Shown here one piece after another: positions 1,893-56,151 of a DNA stretch of 64,000 nt. The DNA is taken from assembly GCF_000378505.1 (NCBI RefSeq), contig NZ_KB899989.1, positions 360,581-424,580 on the forward strand, written 5' to 3'. Position numbers and translations under genes: made by a program. This DNA comes from Modicisalibacter luteus DSM 23508 (GTDB lineage Bacteria; Pseudomonadota; Gammaproteobacteria; Pseudomonadales; Halomonadaceae). The notes beneath the pieces were generated by a model that was not told where the DNA came from, made no database searches, and saw only the letters and a program-made list of their open reading frames with translations. The stretch's first letter is position 1. Each line of letters starts with the position of its first letter.

Positions 1893-2818
1893 CAGGTCGC
1901 CTCCTCGAACGCGCTTTCGCCCACGTCGTCCGAGTCACTCTCCGTGTCGGCAACCTCGGCCTCGTAGGCCCCCTCTTCGCCCAGCGGCTGGCGAGCACGA
2001 ACATGAATGGGCGACAGGGGCTCGTTCTGCACGATCTCGATCATCGATTCCTTGGCTAGCTCGAGAATCGCCATGAAGGTGACGATCACCCCGGCTCGCC
2101 CTTCCTCGAGCGTGAAGAGAGCCACGAAAGGGGTGAAATGCTCATGACTGAGGCGTTCCATGATACGCAGCATGCGCTCGCGCGTGGAGAGCACCTCACG
2201 GCTGATGGTATGCGTCTGGGTCAGCTCGGCACGCCGCAGGATGCCCGACAGGGCACGCAGCAACTCGTCGAGCTCGACCTCGGGGTGGATGACCCGGGTT
2301 TCCAGTGACGGCAGGCCCGCCTGGGCGCCGTACCAGTCGCGCCCCACGCGGGGCAACTCATCCAGCCCCTCGGCGGCAATCTTGAGCCGTTCATACTCCT
2401 GCAGGCGGCGGATCAGCTCGGCACGCGGATCCTCCTCGTCCTCTTCGCCCTCGGCCTTGGGCGGGCGAGGCAGCAGCGTACGCGACTTGATCTCGGCGAG
2501 CATCGCCGCCATCAGCAGATACTCCCCAGCCAGCTCGATCTCCAGGGCCTTCATCAGCTCGATGTATTCGATGTACTGATGGGTGATCGCGGCGACATCG
2601 ATGGCCAGGATATCGAGGTTCTGGCGGCGGATCAGGTAGAGCAACAGATCCAGCGGACCCTCGAAGGACTCTAGAAAGACCCGCAACGCCTCCGGCGGAA
2701 TGTAAAGATCCTCTGGCAGCTCGGTGATTGGCTGGTCATGCAAGCGCGCCAGTACCGCCGCCGTCTGCTGGGCAACCGGCGATTCGGACATTGCAACACT
2801 TTCCGGCGTTTCACTCAC
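1892..2818 (-). CDS. scpA: Segregation and condensation protein A (kleisin)
   Basis: Kleisin bridge of the SMC-ScpAB condensin. The 308-residue protein carries the family signature near residues 48-75 (FEGPLDLLLYLIRRQNLDI) followed by the AEYLLMAA-like block. A C-terminal winged-helix region contacts the SMC head (about residues 220-270). It is first of the three-gene scpA-scpB-rluB operon. The N-terminal 40 residues are poorly conserved, and an internal Met at residue 9 could be the real start. The C-terminal tail after residue 280 is acidic. Confidence 0.93.
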   Translation of the reverse strand: MSETPESVAMSESPVAQQTAAVLARLHDQPITELPEDLYIPPEALRVFLESFEGPLDLLLYLIRRQNLDILAIDVAAITHQYIEYIELMKALEIELAGEYLLMAAMLAEIKSRTLLPRPPKAEGEEDEEDPRAELIRRLQEYERLKIAAEGLDELPRVGRDWYGAQAGLPSLETRVIHPEVELDELLRALSGILRRAELTQTHTISREVLSTRERMLRIMERLSHEHFTPFVALFTLEEGRAGVIVTFMAILELAKESMIEIVQNEPLSPIHVRARQPLGEEGAYEAEVADTESDSDDVGESAFEEAT

Positions 2819-51222: not shown

Positions 51223-51253
51223 GCGTTGATTCGCTGATTAGCTCAGGAATGGC

Positions 51254-52093
51254 TCATTCAAACTGGCCATCAGTCGATACCGACAGTGGACGCCAAGCCT
51301 CCAGCTCCGTTCTGAGCTGCTCGATCTTGTCACTTACGACCTTCACGGCATCCGAGCCGGCCGCAAAACGTAGCGGCGGCCTCGTATGGTTTGCCAATTC
51401 GACGAGACACGCCGCAAGCTTTGCAGGATCACCTGCCTGGCGGTGGCTGTGGGCTTCGAACCCTTCTTGCAGCCGTTGTGAATAGGCTTCGTAGTCGGCG
51501 ATAGGCAACTCGCCATACTGGATAGACGAGGCGTCAAGAAAGTCGGTTCGAAAGTAGCCCGGCTCCACAATGGTGACCTTGATGCCGAACTGTGCGACCT
51601 CCTGCGCCAGCGACTCGGAAAATCCTTCGACGGCGAATTTGCTGGCGCAGTACAGCGCAGCGAACTCCACCCCCTGGATCCCACCGACCGAAGAAAGGTT
51701 GAAAATATGGCCTGAGCGCTGCTGGCGCATGACCGGCAATACGGCTCGGGTCACATCGAAAAGACCAAGGACATTGACGTTGAACTGCGCCCTGGCCGAG
51801 TCCGGCGTGACCTCTTCAAAGAGGCCGAGCTGACCGTAACCGGCATTGTTGACCAGCACATCGATGGCGCCGAATCGCTCCACCGCACCGTCCACGGCAT
51901 GCTGCGCCTGCTGCCTGTCAGTTACATCGAGTGGTAGCGCCAGCAGGCGATCCGACTCGGCGCCCAAGGTTTGTACGACGCTAGCCGGCGTGCGCGCCGT
52001 GGCCACGACCCGGTCTCCTGCGGCCAATGCCGCTTTGGCGACTTCAGCCCCGATGCCCCGTGATGCACCGGTAACGAACCATGTCTTGTTCAT
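51254..52093 (-). CDS. Short-chain dehydrogenase/reductase
   Basis: Classical SDR oxidoreductase of 279 residues. The cofactor motif TGASRGIG and NNAG are present, with catalytic Ser in NLSSVGG and the Tyr-Lys pair in YCASK. Substrate unknown. ATG 52093 follows GAGAAGGAAC. The divergent AraC regulator 171 bp away probably controls it. This SDR may be the oxidoreductase partner often seen near ECF41 sigma factors, but it points away from the ECF41 operon. Confidence 0.92.
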   Translation of the reverse strand: MNKTWFVTGASRGIGAEVAKAALAAGDRVVATARTPASVVQTLGAESDRLLALPLDVTDRQQAQHAVDGAVERFGAIDVLVNNAGYGQLGLFEEVTPDSARAQFNVNVLGLFDVTRAVLPVMRQQRSGHIFNLSSVGGIQGVEFAALYCASKFAVEGFSESLAQEVAQFGIKVTIVEPGYFRTDFLDASSIQYGELPIADYEAYSQRLQEGFEAHSHRQAGDPAKLAACLVELANHTRPPLRFAAGSDAVKVVSDKIEQLRTELEAWRPLSVSTDGQFE

Positions 52094-52264
52094 GTTCCTT
52101 CTCCCATGAGTGAACCGCCAGATCACTATGCTGACGTTCACTGCATCGGAGGTATCCGGATTCTCCGCGAAACTTGCACGATTCTGGCAGCATCTCCTCC
52201 AAGCGTTGCGGCCTCCGCCGAGGCGGCGTAACGTCTTATCTTCGCCGATATGGGGGGCAGCATT

Positions 52265-53167
52265 ATGACTTGGGACAGGGCAAGGTTCGACGAAGTCATC
52301 TCGCTGGTCGAACGATTCTGCCAGAGCGAACGCTGCAACACGCCCATCCCCGGCATCACGCTGGTACGCTCGGATGGCCCGACCGCCGCCATACCAGCGA
52401 TTTATGAGCCGATGCTGTGCCTCATTGCCCAGGGACGCAAACGTACCTTGCTGGGCGACAAGCTGTTCGAATATGGGGCCGGTGACTACCTGATCGCCTC
52501 GGTCGACCTGCCCATTTCAGGCGAAATCGTTGAGGCCAGCCCTGATGCTCCCTACCTGGCCTTTTCCCTGCGACTCGACACTTCGATAATGGCTGAGCTT
52601 CTGCTCGCCCTGCCGGACCGACCCGCCGTGAGCCGGTTACCCACAGGGCTTACGGTGAGCCAACCTACACCAGATCTACTGGATGCCTTGGCTCGCCTGT
52701 TGAGATTGCTCGATCGCCCACAGGACATTGCCATCCTGGCACCGCTGATCGAACGAGAAATTCTCTACCATCTGCTGACTGGCGAGCAGGGCCAGACACT
52801 CCGGCAGATCGCCCTCTCCGAAAGCCACCTGAGCCAGATCAGCAGAGCCATCTCCTGGATCCGACGCCACTACTCCGACCCGCTACGGATCGAGACTGTG
52901 GCGCAGGTTGCCAACATGAGTCCTTCGTCGTTTCATCGCCACTTCAAGGCCGTGACGACCATGAGCCCGCTCCAATATCAGAAACAGATCCGGCTGCAGG
53001 AGGCGCGGCGCCTGTTGCTTGCTCAGGGTACGGACGCAGCCAGTGTCGGATTCATGGTGGGTTATCAGAGCCCATCGCAATTCAGCCGGGAATATGCCCG
53101 CTTGTTCGGTCATCCCCCGATACGGGATGTCAGCCGTTTCCATCGCATCGAGCCGCTGCAGGCATAG
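52265..53167 (+). CDS. AraC-family regulator (AraC_N type)
   Basis: A 300-residue paralogue-like AraC_N regulator divergent from the SDR. The sensor part has IYEPMLCLIAQGRK and YGAGDYLIASVDLP, as in the regulator at 23080. DNA-binding helices follow with VAQVANMSPSSFHRHFKA and VGYQSPSQFSREYAR. I start it at ATG 52265, just after a G-run (GGGGGGCAGC); an ATG at 52250 has no ribosome-binding site. Activates or represses the SDR, by position. Confidence 0.88.
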   Translation: MTWDRARFDEVISLVERFCQSERCNTPIPGITLVRSDGPTAAIPAIYEPMLCLIAQGRKRTLLGDKLFEYGAGDYLIASVDLPISGEIVEASPDAPYLAFSLRLDTSIMAELLLALPDRPAVSRLPTGLTVSQPTPDLLDALARLLRLLDRPQDIAILAPLIEREILYHLLTGEQGQTLRQIALSESHLSQISRAISWIRRHYSDPLRIETVAQVANMSPSSFHRHFKAVTTMSPLQYQKQIRLQEARRLLLAQGTDAASVGFMVGYQSPSQFSREYARLFGHPPIRDVSRFHRIEPLQA

Positions 53168-53190
53168 GCACAACAGATTTACGCGCATGA

Positions 53191-53217
53191 TGTCACAACC
53201 GACTCCACGGGCTCGTC
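53191..53217 (+). promoter_or_regulatory. ECF41-type promoter
   Basis: TGTCACA at 53191-53197 is followed after exactly 16 bases by CGTC at 53214-53217. This is the reported consensus of ECF41 sigma factor promoters (TGTCACA-N16-CGTC). The ATG of the carboxymuconolactone decarboxylase gene is 34 bp beyond the CGTC, and the ECF41 gene lies downstream in the same operon, so the sigma factor should autoregulate. Confidence 0.9.
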
Positions 53218-53250
53218 TTGTCTATGCACGACCCACTACGGAGCCCACCG

Positions 53251-53721
53251 ATGAAACCGAGACTGAATGCCTTTACTGCCGCCCCCGATGCCATGAATGC
53301 GATGGTGACATTCGAAAATGCCATCAGGAAAAGCGGCCTGGAGCCCAGTCTTTTCGAACTAGTCAAGATCCGCGCATCGCAACTCAATGGCTGCGCCTAC
53401 TGTATTCACATGCACACGCGTGATGCCCGAGCCACCGGTGAGCGCGAAGAGCGCATCTACCTGCTTTCGGCCTGGCGGGAGTCGCCGCTTTACAGCGACC
53501 GTGAGCGTGCTGCACTGGCCTGGACCGAAGCATTGACCCTACTGCCTGAAACCCACGCGCCGGATGACGTCTATGCGCTAGTAAGTCAGCAGTTCAACGA
53601 GGCAGAACGGGTCAATCTCACCCTGTTGATTGGTGCGATCAATGTCTGGAACCGTATTGCCGTGGGCTTTCGCAGCATCCACCCTGTCGAGACCTCTCCC
53701 CCGCAGACGGTTGCCTCATGA
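53251..53721 (+). CDS. Carboxymuconolactone decarboxylase-family protein
   Basis: AhpD-like or carboxymuconolactone decarboxylase-like protein of 156 residues, the COE partner typical of ECF41 loci. The redox-active CxxC with downstream His is NGCAYCIHMH near residues 50-59. ATG 53251 follows ACGGAGCCCACCG. Its stop overlaps the sigma-factor ATG by 4 nt (ATGA). In other bacteria the partner is thought to be the target of, or signal source for, the sigma factor. The role here is not known. Confidence 0.92.
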   Translation: MKPRLNAFTAAPDAMNAMVTFENAIRKSGLEPSLFELVKIRASQLNGCAYCIHMHTRDARATGEREERIYLLSAWRESPLYSDRERAALAWTEALTLLPETHAPDDVYALVSQQFNEAERVNLTLLIGAINVWNRIAVGFRSIHPVETSPPQTVAS

Positions 53722-54650
53722 GTGACCCTCAAGGCGCCAGGACGCCAAATGCCTCGCACGAATTCGAGGCCCACCGCGCCTATCTGACGCGCCTTGCCTA
53801 CCGCATGCTCGGCTCGATCGCCGAGGCCGAGGATGCGGTACAAGACGGCTACCTGCGCTGGCACCGTCAGGACACGGCCAGGGTCGACAACCCTCGGGCG
53901 TTTCTCAATCAGGTGGTGACACGGCTCTGCCTCGACCGGATCAAGCAGACCCGCAACCAGCGGGAACACTATGTGGGTGTGTGGCTGCCGGAGCCACTGG
54001 TGGAAGACTGGTCAGCCGCCGAACACGCGGCTTCACCCGTCGATCAGGATGTCACGGTGGCCCTGATGCTGGCGCTTGAGCGTTTGTCGCCACTGGAGCG
54101 TGCCGCCTTCATCCTGCACGATATCTTCGACATGGCGTTCGACGACGTGGCCACGGCGTTGGGCCGAACGGAAGCCGCCTGCCGGCAGTTGGCCAGCCGC
54201 GCACGGAGGCGCGTGATCTCTGCTAAGCCCCGCTTCAAGATCGACCCCAATGAGGGGGCGCGTCTTGCCGACGCCTTCTTCACTGCCGCCCGCAGCGGCG
54301 ACGCCACAAGCTTGCAACAACTGCTGACCAAAACCGCTACCTTTCACTCCGATGGCGGCGGTCGCAAGCCTGCGGCCCTTCGTACCATCTCGGGCGCTGA
54401 CAAGATCGGTCGAATGTATGCAGGCTTGGCCCGCAAAAGGGCTTTCGCCATGCCCCTCTGGACCCGCAATGTCAGGATCGATGGCCTGCCCGGCCATCTT
54501 TCGGTCGAACACGACGGCACGCTGCAGACCACGGCCTTGCAGTTTGAGGCGGGGCGTATACAGGCCATCTTCGTGGTGCGAAATCCTGACAAGCTGCGTC
54601 ACCTCGCGGCATTACTGCCTGCTGACGCGGCACAGCTGATTACTCACTGA
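53718..54650 (+). CDS. ECF41-type RNA polymerase sigma factor
   Basis: Extracytoplasmic function sigma factor of the ECF41 group, which lacks an anti-sigma factor gene and is controlled by its own C-terminal NTF2/SnoaL-like domain. The 310-residue protein has sigma-2 (about 18-85, with RMLGSIAEAEDAVQDGYLRW) and sigma-4 (about 115-175). The linker motif WLPEPLVEDW is a family hallmark, and the SnoaL domain ends with NPDKL, another ECF41 mark. Cotranscribed with the carboxymuconolactone decarboxylase gene behind an exact ECF41 promoter. Confidence 0.94.
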   Translation: MSDPQGARTPNASHEFEAHRAYLTRLAYRMLGSIAEAEDAVQDGYLRWHRQDTARVDNPRAFLNQVVTRLCLDRIKQTRNQREHYVGVWLPEPLVEDWSAAEHAASPVDQDVTVALMLALERLSPLERAAFILHDIFDMAFDDVATALGRTEAACRQLASRARRRVISAKPRFKIDPNEGARLADAFFTAARSGDATSLQQLLTKTATFHSDGGGRKPAALRTISGADKIGRMYAGLARKRAFAMPLWTRNVRIDGLPGHLSVEHDGTLQTTALQFEAGRIQAIFVVRNPDKLRHLAALLPADAAQLITH

Positions 54651-54750
54651 CAGGCGATGTGACATCGCCAACAGTGGTTCAAGCATCTGCAAGACACTAA
54701 AGCTCGGAGTGGCTGGGGTAGCGGGGGGCTGGCCAGCTCTGCTAAAGTCA

Positions 54751-54764
54751 AACAAGAACTTGTT
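54751..54764. promoter_or_regulatory. Palindrome AACAAGAACTTGTT before the Crp/Fnr gene
   Basis: A perfect 6-2-6 inverted repeat 27 bp upstream of the TTG start of the Crp/Fnr-family gene. TTGTTTATAC overlapping it looks like promoter sequence. It may be an operator for the adjacent regulator, though it does not match the FNR or CRP consensus. Confidence 0.4.
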
Positions 54765-54790
54765 TATACGTCATTGGAAGGAGCCATGCA

Positions 54791-55516
54791 TTGCCATCCC
54801 CTTTGATACATAGGCTGAGCCAGTTCATGGAACTGACCGATGAAGAAAAAAAGACATTGGAGAATGCAGCCAGGCAAAGGATTACCATCAGAAAAGGGAA
54901 AGACATCATCAGCGAAGGGCAGAAGCCTGACGAGGTGTATCTCATAGAAGAAGGCTGGGCTTGCCGCTATAAGCTTCTTGAAAATGGCGAGCACCACATC
55001 ATGGCCTATCTGATTCCCGGTGATCTGTGCGACCTCCATACCACCATACTGGATCAGATGGACCATTCGATTCGCACCATCACTCCCCTGAAAGCTGCCG
55101 TTTATTCGGCCAACGAAATAAGTAACTTAATGGCGAAAAATGTTCGGCTTGCAAGAGCGCTTACCTGGTCGACGATGGTTGACGAGGCGATTCTGCGAGA
55201 GTGGCTGGTCAATGCGGGTAGCCGGGCTGCCGACAAGCGCTTGGCTCATTTCTTCTGTGAGATGCTAATACGCTCGCGTGCTGCGGGTCTTTCCCAAGAC
55301 AATAGCTTTGAGTTTCCGATCACCCAGGCAGAGCTAGGTGAGTCAATGGGCCTGACTGAGGTGCACATCAACCGGGTTCTTCAGCGGCTACGCGGAGAAG
55401 GCCTTATCGCTACAGACAATAAACGCCTGGTTATCCTCGATTGGGTACGCCTCAAGGCGTTTGCGCAGTTTAACCCGAACTATCTTCATTGCCAGATAGA
55501 ACCCTGTGATGCTTAA
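54791..55516 (+). CDS. Crp/Fnr-family transcription regulator
   Basis: A 241-residue regulator with a cyclic-nucleotide-type beta-roll (about 15-125, with GKDIISEGQKPDEVYLIEEG), a dimer helix, and a C-terminal winged helix (about 170-225, ITQAELGESMGLTEVHINRVL). It has no N-terminal FNR Cys cluster. Translation begins at TTG 54791, since GGAAGGAG precedes it at correct distance. The ATG five bases upstream is in another frame and stops after six codons. Effector unknown. The CsrB-like sRNA gene lies 120-380 bp downstream on the other strand. Confidence 0.88.
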   Translation: MPSPLIHRLSQFMELTDEEKKTLENAARQRITIRKGKDIISEGQKPDEVYLIEEGWACRYKLLENGEHHIMAYLIPGDLCDLHTTILDQMDHSIRTITPLKAAVYSANEISNLMAKNVRLARALTWSTMVDEAILREWLVNAGSRAADKRLAHFFCEMLIRSRAAGLSQDNSFEFPITQAELGESMGLTEVHINRVLQRLRGEGLIATDNKRLVILDWVRLKAFAQFNPNYLHCQIEPCDA

Positions 55517-55680
55517 GCGTACCTGCCGAGCAGGGCTGCCTTCAGGTTGGAAAGGTCAGGAGGTTAGTCTTCGTGCAGGACCGGTCTGCATGCTCGTTGT
55601 ATTGGCATACTGTCAGCGTTTCTTTGCTGCTTAGCCCTCATATGCTCTAAAGACCAGCGCATCCATTCTCATGTAACGGG
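55517..55680. other. Spacer between Crp/Fnr gene and sRNA terminator
   Basis: Noncoding 164 bp. No clear gene. An 88-codon open frame on the minus strand overlaps this and the sRNA but has no ribosome-binding site and is not coding-like. Confidence 0.5.
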
Positions 55681-55681
55681 A

Positions 55682-55895
55682 CAAAAGAAAGCCCGGACCC
55701 CCTAGGGGGGCCGGGCCAATCTGGGCTTCATCGGGCTTTCTCAAGCGCTCTAGCGCTGCCTTCCTTGCTTCACTTCCACGGGCTTCCTGCCCATGCTTCC
55801 CTGGATGCTTTCGCGAACGTCCTGTCCGCGCTTCCCTGGCTACCAGAGCCTTCCTGGCTCGTTCTTCCCTGATCGGGCTTCCTGCCCAACGCCGC
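55682..55895 (-). ncRNA. CsrB/RsmZ-type CsrA-sequestering small RNA
   Basis: On the minus strand this stretch of about 210 nt holds at least eight GGA motifs, most as AGGA or AGGGA. Several are in perfect small hairpin loops: GGGC-AGGAA-GCCC (55875-55887), GAGCC-AGGAA-GGCTC (55846-55860), CGCG...AGGA...CGCG (55812-55830) and GGGC-AGGAA-GCCC again (55780-55792). Others lie near 55862-55869, 55831-55839, 55795-55803, 55771-55779 and 55758-55768. A terminator with a GCCCGG...CCGGGC stem follows (55691-55716), then TTTCTTTTGT. This is the signature of CsrB/CsrC/RsmY/RsmZ RNAs that titrate the translation regulator CsrA (RsmA). The 5' end is estimated; no clear promoter or complete GacA (UvrY) box was recognised, though a TATAAG half-site lies about 55 bp upstream. 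Confidence 0.82.
55691..55716 (-). terminator. Intrinsic terminator of the CsrB-type sRNA
   Basis: GCCCGG(C)CCCCC and GGGGG(T)CCGGGC pair around TA, followed on the minus strand by TTTCTTTTGT. Very strong, marks the 3' end of the sRNA. Confidence 0.9.
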
Positions 55896-56151
55896 ACATT
55901 GTGCCAAACATGACGTACCCACGAACTAACTTGCGTTACTTTGACTTATAAGGTTTTTCCTGCAGAAACTCTTGTGAAACGTTAAACGCTCGGTAGCTCG
56001 ATCCCGGAAGCCAACAATGGGCAACCCTTTCCGCTTCGCCATCCCGGCCTGCTTCCATAGATGGCTCCTCGGCTATCTCAAGGCTACGCTTCATGACACC
56101 ACCTCGCTTCACATCATCCCGTGTTGCCCCGTCTTGATTAAGGAGTCTGCC

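Follow-up and report, generated by a model that had tools for sequence, protein, structure and literature searches.

We find that the minus strand of the 64,000-nucleotide stretch of Modicisalibacter luteus DSM 23508 DNA analyzed here (the window) encodes a CsrB-like small RNA that is very probably a GacA-responsive, CsrA-sequestering sponge of the Csr/Rsm system and one of about 17 to 20 such RNAs in its genome. This is about twice the largest number that we found listed for any bacterium, and the CsrB-like family is most likely exceptionally expanded in this genome. The RNA probably soaks up the global regulator CsrA; its transcription, dependence on GacA, binding of CsrA, and effect on targets are what we infer from the sequence. 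The first-pass annotation had proposed a single CsrA-titrating RNA at 55682 to 55895 on the minus strand. The location, strand, and class stand, while the single RNA has become a member of a large genomic set. Membership in the class is supported by GGA hairpins and linkers, an intrinsic terminator, and stems that covary in relatives, and additionally by a weak but in-register GacA-type box, the presence of csrA and a gacA-uvrC locus in the genome, and a subthreshold match in which CsrB has the best E value. The decisive evidence is the homologous family rather than local statistics.

GGA hairpins, linkers, and terminator

The RNA locus comprises the following features.

55682 to 55896, minus strand: CsrB-like RNA of about 215 nt, its 5' end placed from a -10-like CACAAT
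55875 to 55887, minus strand: GGA hairpin 1, GGGC-AGGAA-GCCC; GGA unpaired probability, 0.88 to 0.99
55846 to 55860, minus strand: GGA hairpin 2, GAGCC-AGGAA-GGCTC; pentaloop on a predicted stem
55812 to 55830, minus strand: GGA hairpin 3, CGCGGAC-AGGAC-GTTCGCG; one G-U pair
55780 to 55792, minus strand: GGA hairpin 4, identical in sequence to hairpin 1
55758 to 55770, minus strand: linker GGA (AAGCAAGGAAGGC); GGA unpaired probability, 0.96 to 0.98; a similar linker is present in alignment A1 (see below)
55683 to 55716, minus strand: intrinsic terminator, consisting of a stem (55691 to 55716) and a U tract (55683 to 55690; TTTCTTTT)

Ten GGA motifs lie in the minus strand of 55682 to 55895. 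Of the "at least eight GGA hairpin motifs" reported in the first pass, the number of motifs is thus exceeded, but only four are held in hairpin loops, namely, the pentaloops of the short stems of hairpins 1 to 4. In the single-sequence fold, the linker GGA at 55764 is also predicted to be unpaired, and the other five have at least one base predicted to be paired, mostly in AGGGAAG-type linkers, with one of these five sitting wholly within a stem. GGA does, in line with the earlier proposal, fall in the loops of predicted stems, and the two hairpins that had been described as identical are both GGGCAGGAAGCCC. The terminator that had been called strong has a GC-rich stem, with a stability of -24.8 kcal/mol when folded alone, followed by the U tract; it was absent from the list returned by a simple terminator scan.

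Local statistics were mixed. In dinucleotide shuffles, 10 or more GGA motifs were reached in 293 of 2,000 cases (mean, 7.5), and because of this we rejected the bare count as proof, as it is weak evidence for a sequence of this composition. Of 127,574 stretches of equal size taken from the two strands of the 64 kb, 300 reached 10 motifs. GGA in the loops of Watson-Crick stems with at least four pairs was observed 3 times, against a shuffle mean of 0.59 (reached in 10 of 500 shuffles), and the fold is more stable than those of shuffled sequences (z = -2.56; 1 of 200).

A covarying family of homologs

The first-pass annotation suggested a scan with Rfam models, and its outcome was divided: CsrB (RF00018) does give the best E value for the window copy (19.3 bits; E = 0.0037; cutoff, 71), but no model reaches its cutoff. 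None of the Csr/Rsm models attained the gathering score for the window copy or for any of the 20 loci recovered from the same genome (see below). The best CsrB match among these loci, L046, is likewise below the cutoff (33.2 bits; E = 1.8 × 10−5). The best RsmY (RF00195) match was to L044 (28.3 bits versus a cutoff of 57; E = 0.006), with weaker subthreshold matches in L037, L042, and L045; among the matches listed, neither RsmY nor the other Rsm models were found for the window copy. Of the further families in the relaxed Rfam list, we discounted sX11, suhB, and anti-hemB, which match mainly the terminator end, and SorX, which matches the opposite strand. A subthreshold match to the sar antisense RNA family was seen in L042 (93 to 151, minus strand; 33.3 bits; cutoff, 43).

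A blastn-type search with 401 bp recovered matches in 9 of 58 genomes, including that of M. luteus itself, where it pointed to six further places. From 19 short-form copies, three of them from the same genome (L019, L026, and L030) and the rest from relatives, we built an alignment (A1) and a covariance model (R1), leaving the window copy out of both. Searched against the M. luteus genome, R1 recovered the window copy at C1:416265-416473 with 85.8 bits and an E value of 1.8 × 10−22; the E values of this model are rough because its calibration was shortened.

RNAalifold predicted 22 pairs from the 19 copies. In the 20 of these that were examined, 97.1% of the cells pair, and sliding the partner strand by one column lowers pairing to 43 to 47%. 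Double changes that keep pairing occur in 11 of the 20 pairs versus 4.1 in shuffles, and in 23 cells versus 5.4, where the structure was taken from the same alignment and the shuffles ignore relatedness. The counterpart of hairpin 2 is 94.4% paired in relatives, with two doubly changed pairs, and that of hairpin 3 is 99.2% paired, with double changes in five of its seven pairs; the terminator helix covaries as well.

Upstream control region

Upstream of the RNA, we recognized three elements.

55947 to 55964, minus strand: weak GacA/UvrY-type box, TGCAGGAAAAACCTTATA, with 3 mismatches in 12 positions
55927 to 55938, minus strand: TAACGCAAGTTA, a copy of an AGGTTA promoter element, at the same spacing from the box as in other copies
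55898 to 55903, minus strand: tentative -10-like CACAAT; L005 has CATCAT there, as read by eye

The consensus of the UvrY/GacA box is given as TGTAAG-N6-CTTACA in the portion of PMC4682653 consulted, and an upstream block like TGTCGGYAATCTCTTACA fits it in many copies, with the GacA-type box at a fixed spacing from the AGGTTA element. The window box lies at -71 from the model start, and in seven other copies from the same genome it is found at -70 or -71. If up to 3 mismatches are allowed in the 12 positions, a box is present in 13 of the 20 loci of the genome, against 1.3 expected from mononucleotide shuffles; it is perfect in three, off register in one of the 13 (L053), and missing at this threshold from seven. 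The joint block of box and AGGTTA element likewise occurs in 13 of the 20 (1.3 expected), and of 52 loci of relatives, 18 have the box and 18 have the joint block (3.1 and 2.9 expected, respectively). A simple promoter scan found no sigma-70 site for the window copy.

The TAACnnAGGTTA-like element, exemplified in the window by 55927 to 55938, keeps a fixed spacing to the GacA box and is present in some copies that lack the box; L036-like copies retain only the AGGTTA-like element. For its identity, we have imagined a Crp/Fnr-type site. The genome has a GacA-type regulator (Response_reg and GerE domains) directly adjoining uvrC, and the gene after uvrC was read by eye as pgsA.

Put together, these elements suggest a course of events in which GacA and copy-specific inputs would start transcription of the approximately 215-nt RNA, the transcript would end at the GC-rich terminator, and the GGA hairpins and linkers would bind several CsrA dimers, a sequestration that would free the target mRNAs of CsrA. 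The 17 to 20 RNAs should then act on CsrA as one additive pool.

Copies in the genome

R1 matched the M. luteus genome 18 times at an E value of 1 × 10−11 or better, including the window copy and the three training copies. The next matches are three at about 28 bits (E = 1.9 × 10−5 to 3.1 × 10−5), and the remainder have 23.8 bits or less. We count the 18 matches as 17 RNAs, since C32:6700 and C32:6815 are not separated by a U tract and were merged as a single long RNA; with the three candidates, this gives 20 loci, and the genome accordingly has about 17 to 20 CsrB-like RNAs. At an E value of 10 or better there were 55 rows, of which the 18 and 3 were kept and 34 (23.8 bits or less) were dropped, some of the latter being opposite-strand matches on kept loci. 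Of the five dropped rows that were read, L056, L059, L062, and L063 look driven by the terminator or by composition, while L061 (C36:2937), to all appearances a short remnant, was left out of the count.

The copies are about 140 to 270 nt long. Since the closest pair is 92% identical, none are identical duplicates produced by assembly. A strict search recovered a terminator at 17 of the 20 loci, the exceptions being L048, L050, and L054. By an automatic boundary rule, the loci have from 3 to 15 GGA motifs each, where the count of 3 for L051 is an underestimate, six being visible on reading it. Two small contigs, C24 with 18 kb and C32 with 9.8 kb, have two CsrB-like loci apiece, and at L054 (1501 to 1628, plus strand, and 2458 to 2549, minus strand), about 0.8 kb separates a candidate copy from a gene for tRNA-Sec.

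Distribution in relatives and linkage to csrA

Across 14 genomes of the genus, the numbers of R1 matches at an E value of 1 × 10−6 or better are 18 (M. luteus), 15 (G009), 14 (G001), 7, 7, 6, 4, 3, 1, 1, 1, 0, 0, and 0, these being counts of matches, several of which may belong to one RNA. At least one match was found in 26 of 61 sampled genomes of the family and in at least 132 of 250 genomes of a larger sample; in the latter, 13 candidates were scored per genome, so that the counts represent minimum values and did not enter any ranking by copy number. A scan with an RNA pattern retrieved 20 stretches, of which one is from Marinobacter and the other 19 are from contigs titled Halomonas, Modicisalibacter, Halomonadaceae, Vreelandella, or Litchfieldella. 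On an 8.8-kb contig labeled Marinobacter azerbaijanicus, there is a copy of the halomonad type whose promoter elements are similar (L100; 493 to 520, plus strand, and surroundings), which may reflect transfer or contamination. In another genome (L156; G011:C35, reverse strand, about 2005 to 2400), a CsrB-like locus has grown through tandem repeats in which GGA hairpins alternate, giving 31 GGA motifs in 396 nt.

The first-pass annotation advised looking for csrA in the genome, and we found three such genes. A single csrA is the rule in the genus (11 of 14 genomes), and the three genomes richest in matches (18, 15, and 14) have three, two, and three, respectively. In M. luteus, the extra csrA pair on contig C12 is divergent from the CsrB-like RNA L044 across a perfect GacA box, TGTAAGAAAATGCTTACA. 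The same divergent layout of csrA and RNA is seen in G001 and G009, where neither an exact nor a relaxed GacA box pattern was found at these loci. Extra csrA genes divergent to a CsrB-like RNA (L044, L141, and L151) are thus present in each of the three genomes of the genus in which csrA is not single.

Genomic context of the window copy

The surroundings of the window copy include the following.

54791 to 55516, plus strand: Crp/Fnr-family regulator gene (PF13545 and PF00027), convergent with the RNA
51225 to 56141, no strand assigned: segment missing or replaced in relatives, with SDR-like, AraC, CMD-family, sigma-factor, and Crp/Fnr genes and the RNA

This segment of about 4.9 kb, the ends of which were placed by eye, is reduced to about 115 bp between collinear flanks in G009, and G001 has about 1.3 kb of other DNA in its stead. 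The flanking FMN reductase gene was recovered at an E value of 1 × 10−40 or better in 2 of the 13 other genomes of the genus (G001 and G009), so the remaining ones are uninformative on this locus. The first pass had looked to a homolog at the same place in related genomes; there is none for the window copy in the two genomes with the flanking gene. Elsewhere, homologs are numerous, and other copies have neighboring genes in common across species: such genes shared with G001 or G009 loci are found at L034, L036, and L049, where they include Crp/Fnr, and also at L035, L039, L044, L045/L051, L048, and L052.

The absence of the segment from G009 and its replacement in G001 would fit a decayed or silent CsrB-like duplicate carried passively in a recently gained segment without useful expression, as would the weak GacA box and the many other copies that could make this one redundant. 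We nevertheless regard such decay as unlikely, given that this copy retains four intact GGA hairpins and a very strong, likewise intact terminator, that the promoter block is in the register of the family, and that the 10 GGA motifs exceed the number in 15 of the 19 other copies of the genome.

With regard to the convergent regulator, 4 of 16 strong Crp/Fnr matches (29 in all), including the window's, lie within 0.5 kb of a copy when 0.12 would be expected (Poisson P = 8 × 10−6), in a test that was suggested by the data and with genomes that are not independent, because L034, L036, and L049 share neighbors with the G001 or G009 loci. Three Crp/Fnr genes occur within 1.5 kb of 4 of the 14 matches in G001, and four such genes occur within 1.5 kb of 6 of the 15 matches in G009. 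A search for related loci with the Crp/Fnr protein of the window found none. This recurrent linkage, taken with the convergent arrangement and the distance of about 165 nt from the Crp/Fnr stop codon (55516) to the 3' end of the RNA, raises the question of whether the RNA acts on that gene, as its 3' antisense partner or its attenuator, instead of being a trans-acting sponge. We consider this highly improbable: the terminator precedes the gene, and an RNA ending there therefore has no overlap with it; at L049 the Crp/Fnr gene is upstream and on the same strand; and 16 of the 20 copies have no Crp/Fnr neighbor within the 1.5 kb examined.

The region is also covered, as had been pointed out, by an 88-codon reading frame, which is GTG started and spans 55631 to 55897. 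That it is a real gene for a small arginine-rich protein, with the GGA pattern as a side effect of its codons, is scarcely credible and was rejected because each of the five closest homologs changes its frame with respect to the window copy four to six times and there is no Pfam match; moreover, in these homologs any one relative frame accounts for at most 51% of the alignment, stop codons interrupt all three frames in two of them (L005 and L006), the stem pairs covary in relatives, and the frame continues through the terminator. In its favor are the openness of the frame for 88 codons, tblastn translations that are 45 to 52% similar in L005 and L047/L013 (as nucleotide similarity alone would yield), and the one or two frames that, by mixed register, stay open throughout the aligned part of three of the five homologs (L007, L013, and L020). 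The frame most likely encodes no protein, and with its intrinsic terminator and no conserved open reading frame, the locus has the makeup of a free-standing gene for a sponge RNA.

Comparison with known systems

Among the systems in Tables 1 and 2 of PMC7366521, the largest number of RNAs is that of Azotobacter vinelandii, with nine (RsmZ1 to -7 and RsmY1 and -2), and the excerpted text of PMC4824345 describes RsmZ1 to -7 and RsmY as GacA dependent. Control by GacA of numerous GGA RNAs that act on RsmA/CsrA is common to that system and the one predicted here. They differ in number (9 versus 17 to 20) and in that the present copies are below Rfam thresholds; the proximity of copies to Crp/Fnr and extra csrA genes seen here has no mention for A. 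vinelandii in the passages of PMC7366521 and PMC4824345 consulted. Enterobacterial CsrB (RF00018) and CsrC share with the present RNAs GGA in hairpins and linkers, an intrinsic terminator, and, in many copies, a UvrY/GacA-type box, whereas the copies here are shorter than the 356-position CsrB model, and the window copy, as noted, falls well short of its cutoff. Escherichia coli CsrB is credited with 18 binding sites in the consulted part of PMC7366521.

Duplication as the source of copies has a parallel in Vibrio tasmaniensis, for which the portion of PMC6262261 available describes duplicated, differently regulated csrB copies (CsrB1 to -4) that integrate several inputs; there are four of these versus the 17 to 20 here, and they belong to another bacterial family. 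In Pseudomonas syringae DC3000, as in M. luteus, multiplication extends to the RNAs as well as to csrA (RsmX1 to -5, RsmY, and RsmZ and five CsrA proteins in Table 2 of PMC7366521), but with seven RNAs, whereas here extra csrA genes are divergent to a CsrB-like RNA. Control of CsrB/CsrC by Crp is described for Yersinia in the extract of PMC3523269.

On halomonads, a table in the 2020 review (PMC7366521) enters the CsrA-antagonist RNAs of Halomonas anticariensis as "Unknown." Judged by the relevant passages of each source, PMC12889724 presents a model of CsrA binding in Halomonas hydrothermalis, with sponge RNAs mentioned only as future work, PMC13414033 deals in its Halomonas passages with an engineered PrrF1 RNA, PMC4597393 notes csrA in H. 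meridiana, and PMC6471967 holds nothing relevant on halomonad CsrB-like RNAs. The main text of PMC5568370 does not name Halomonas or Chromohalobacter. No title or abstract opening retrieved from the open-access literature dealt with halomonad CsrB-like RNAs, which, given that scope, is weak evidence of absence.

Implications

The present work gives the CsrA-antagonist RNAs of halomonads a family and a model, where Rfam recognizes none of the M. luteus copies at threshold. With 0 to 18 R1 matches and one to three csrA genes per genome, the genus lends itself, as a natural experiment, to asking why a bacterium should maintain multiple sponge RNAs. As a tentative proposal, which we hold to be possible though not probable, Csr in this genus may be a distributed integrator in which about 20 sponges with their own promoter contexts feed many separate signals (from GacA and, in M. 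luteus, from a Crp/Fnr neighbor of at least four copies) into one CsrA pool, the window sponge and its sensor having been gained in one segment and the extra csrA genes, each paired to its own sponge, keeping the balance. If Crp/Fnr genes control the neighboring copies, such gains of a sensor plus a sponge would wire new inputs into a global posttranscriptional regulator. Halomonads studied for quorum sensing, exopolysaccharide, and biofilm, such as H. anticariensis, would be natural test beds for these ideas.
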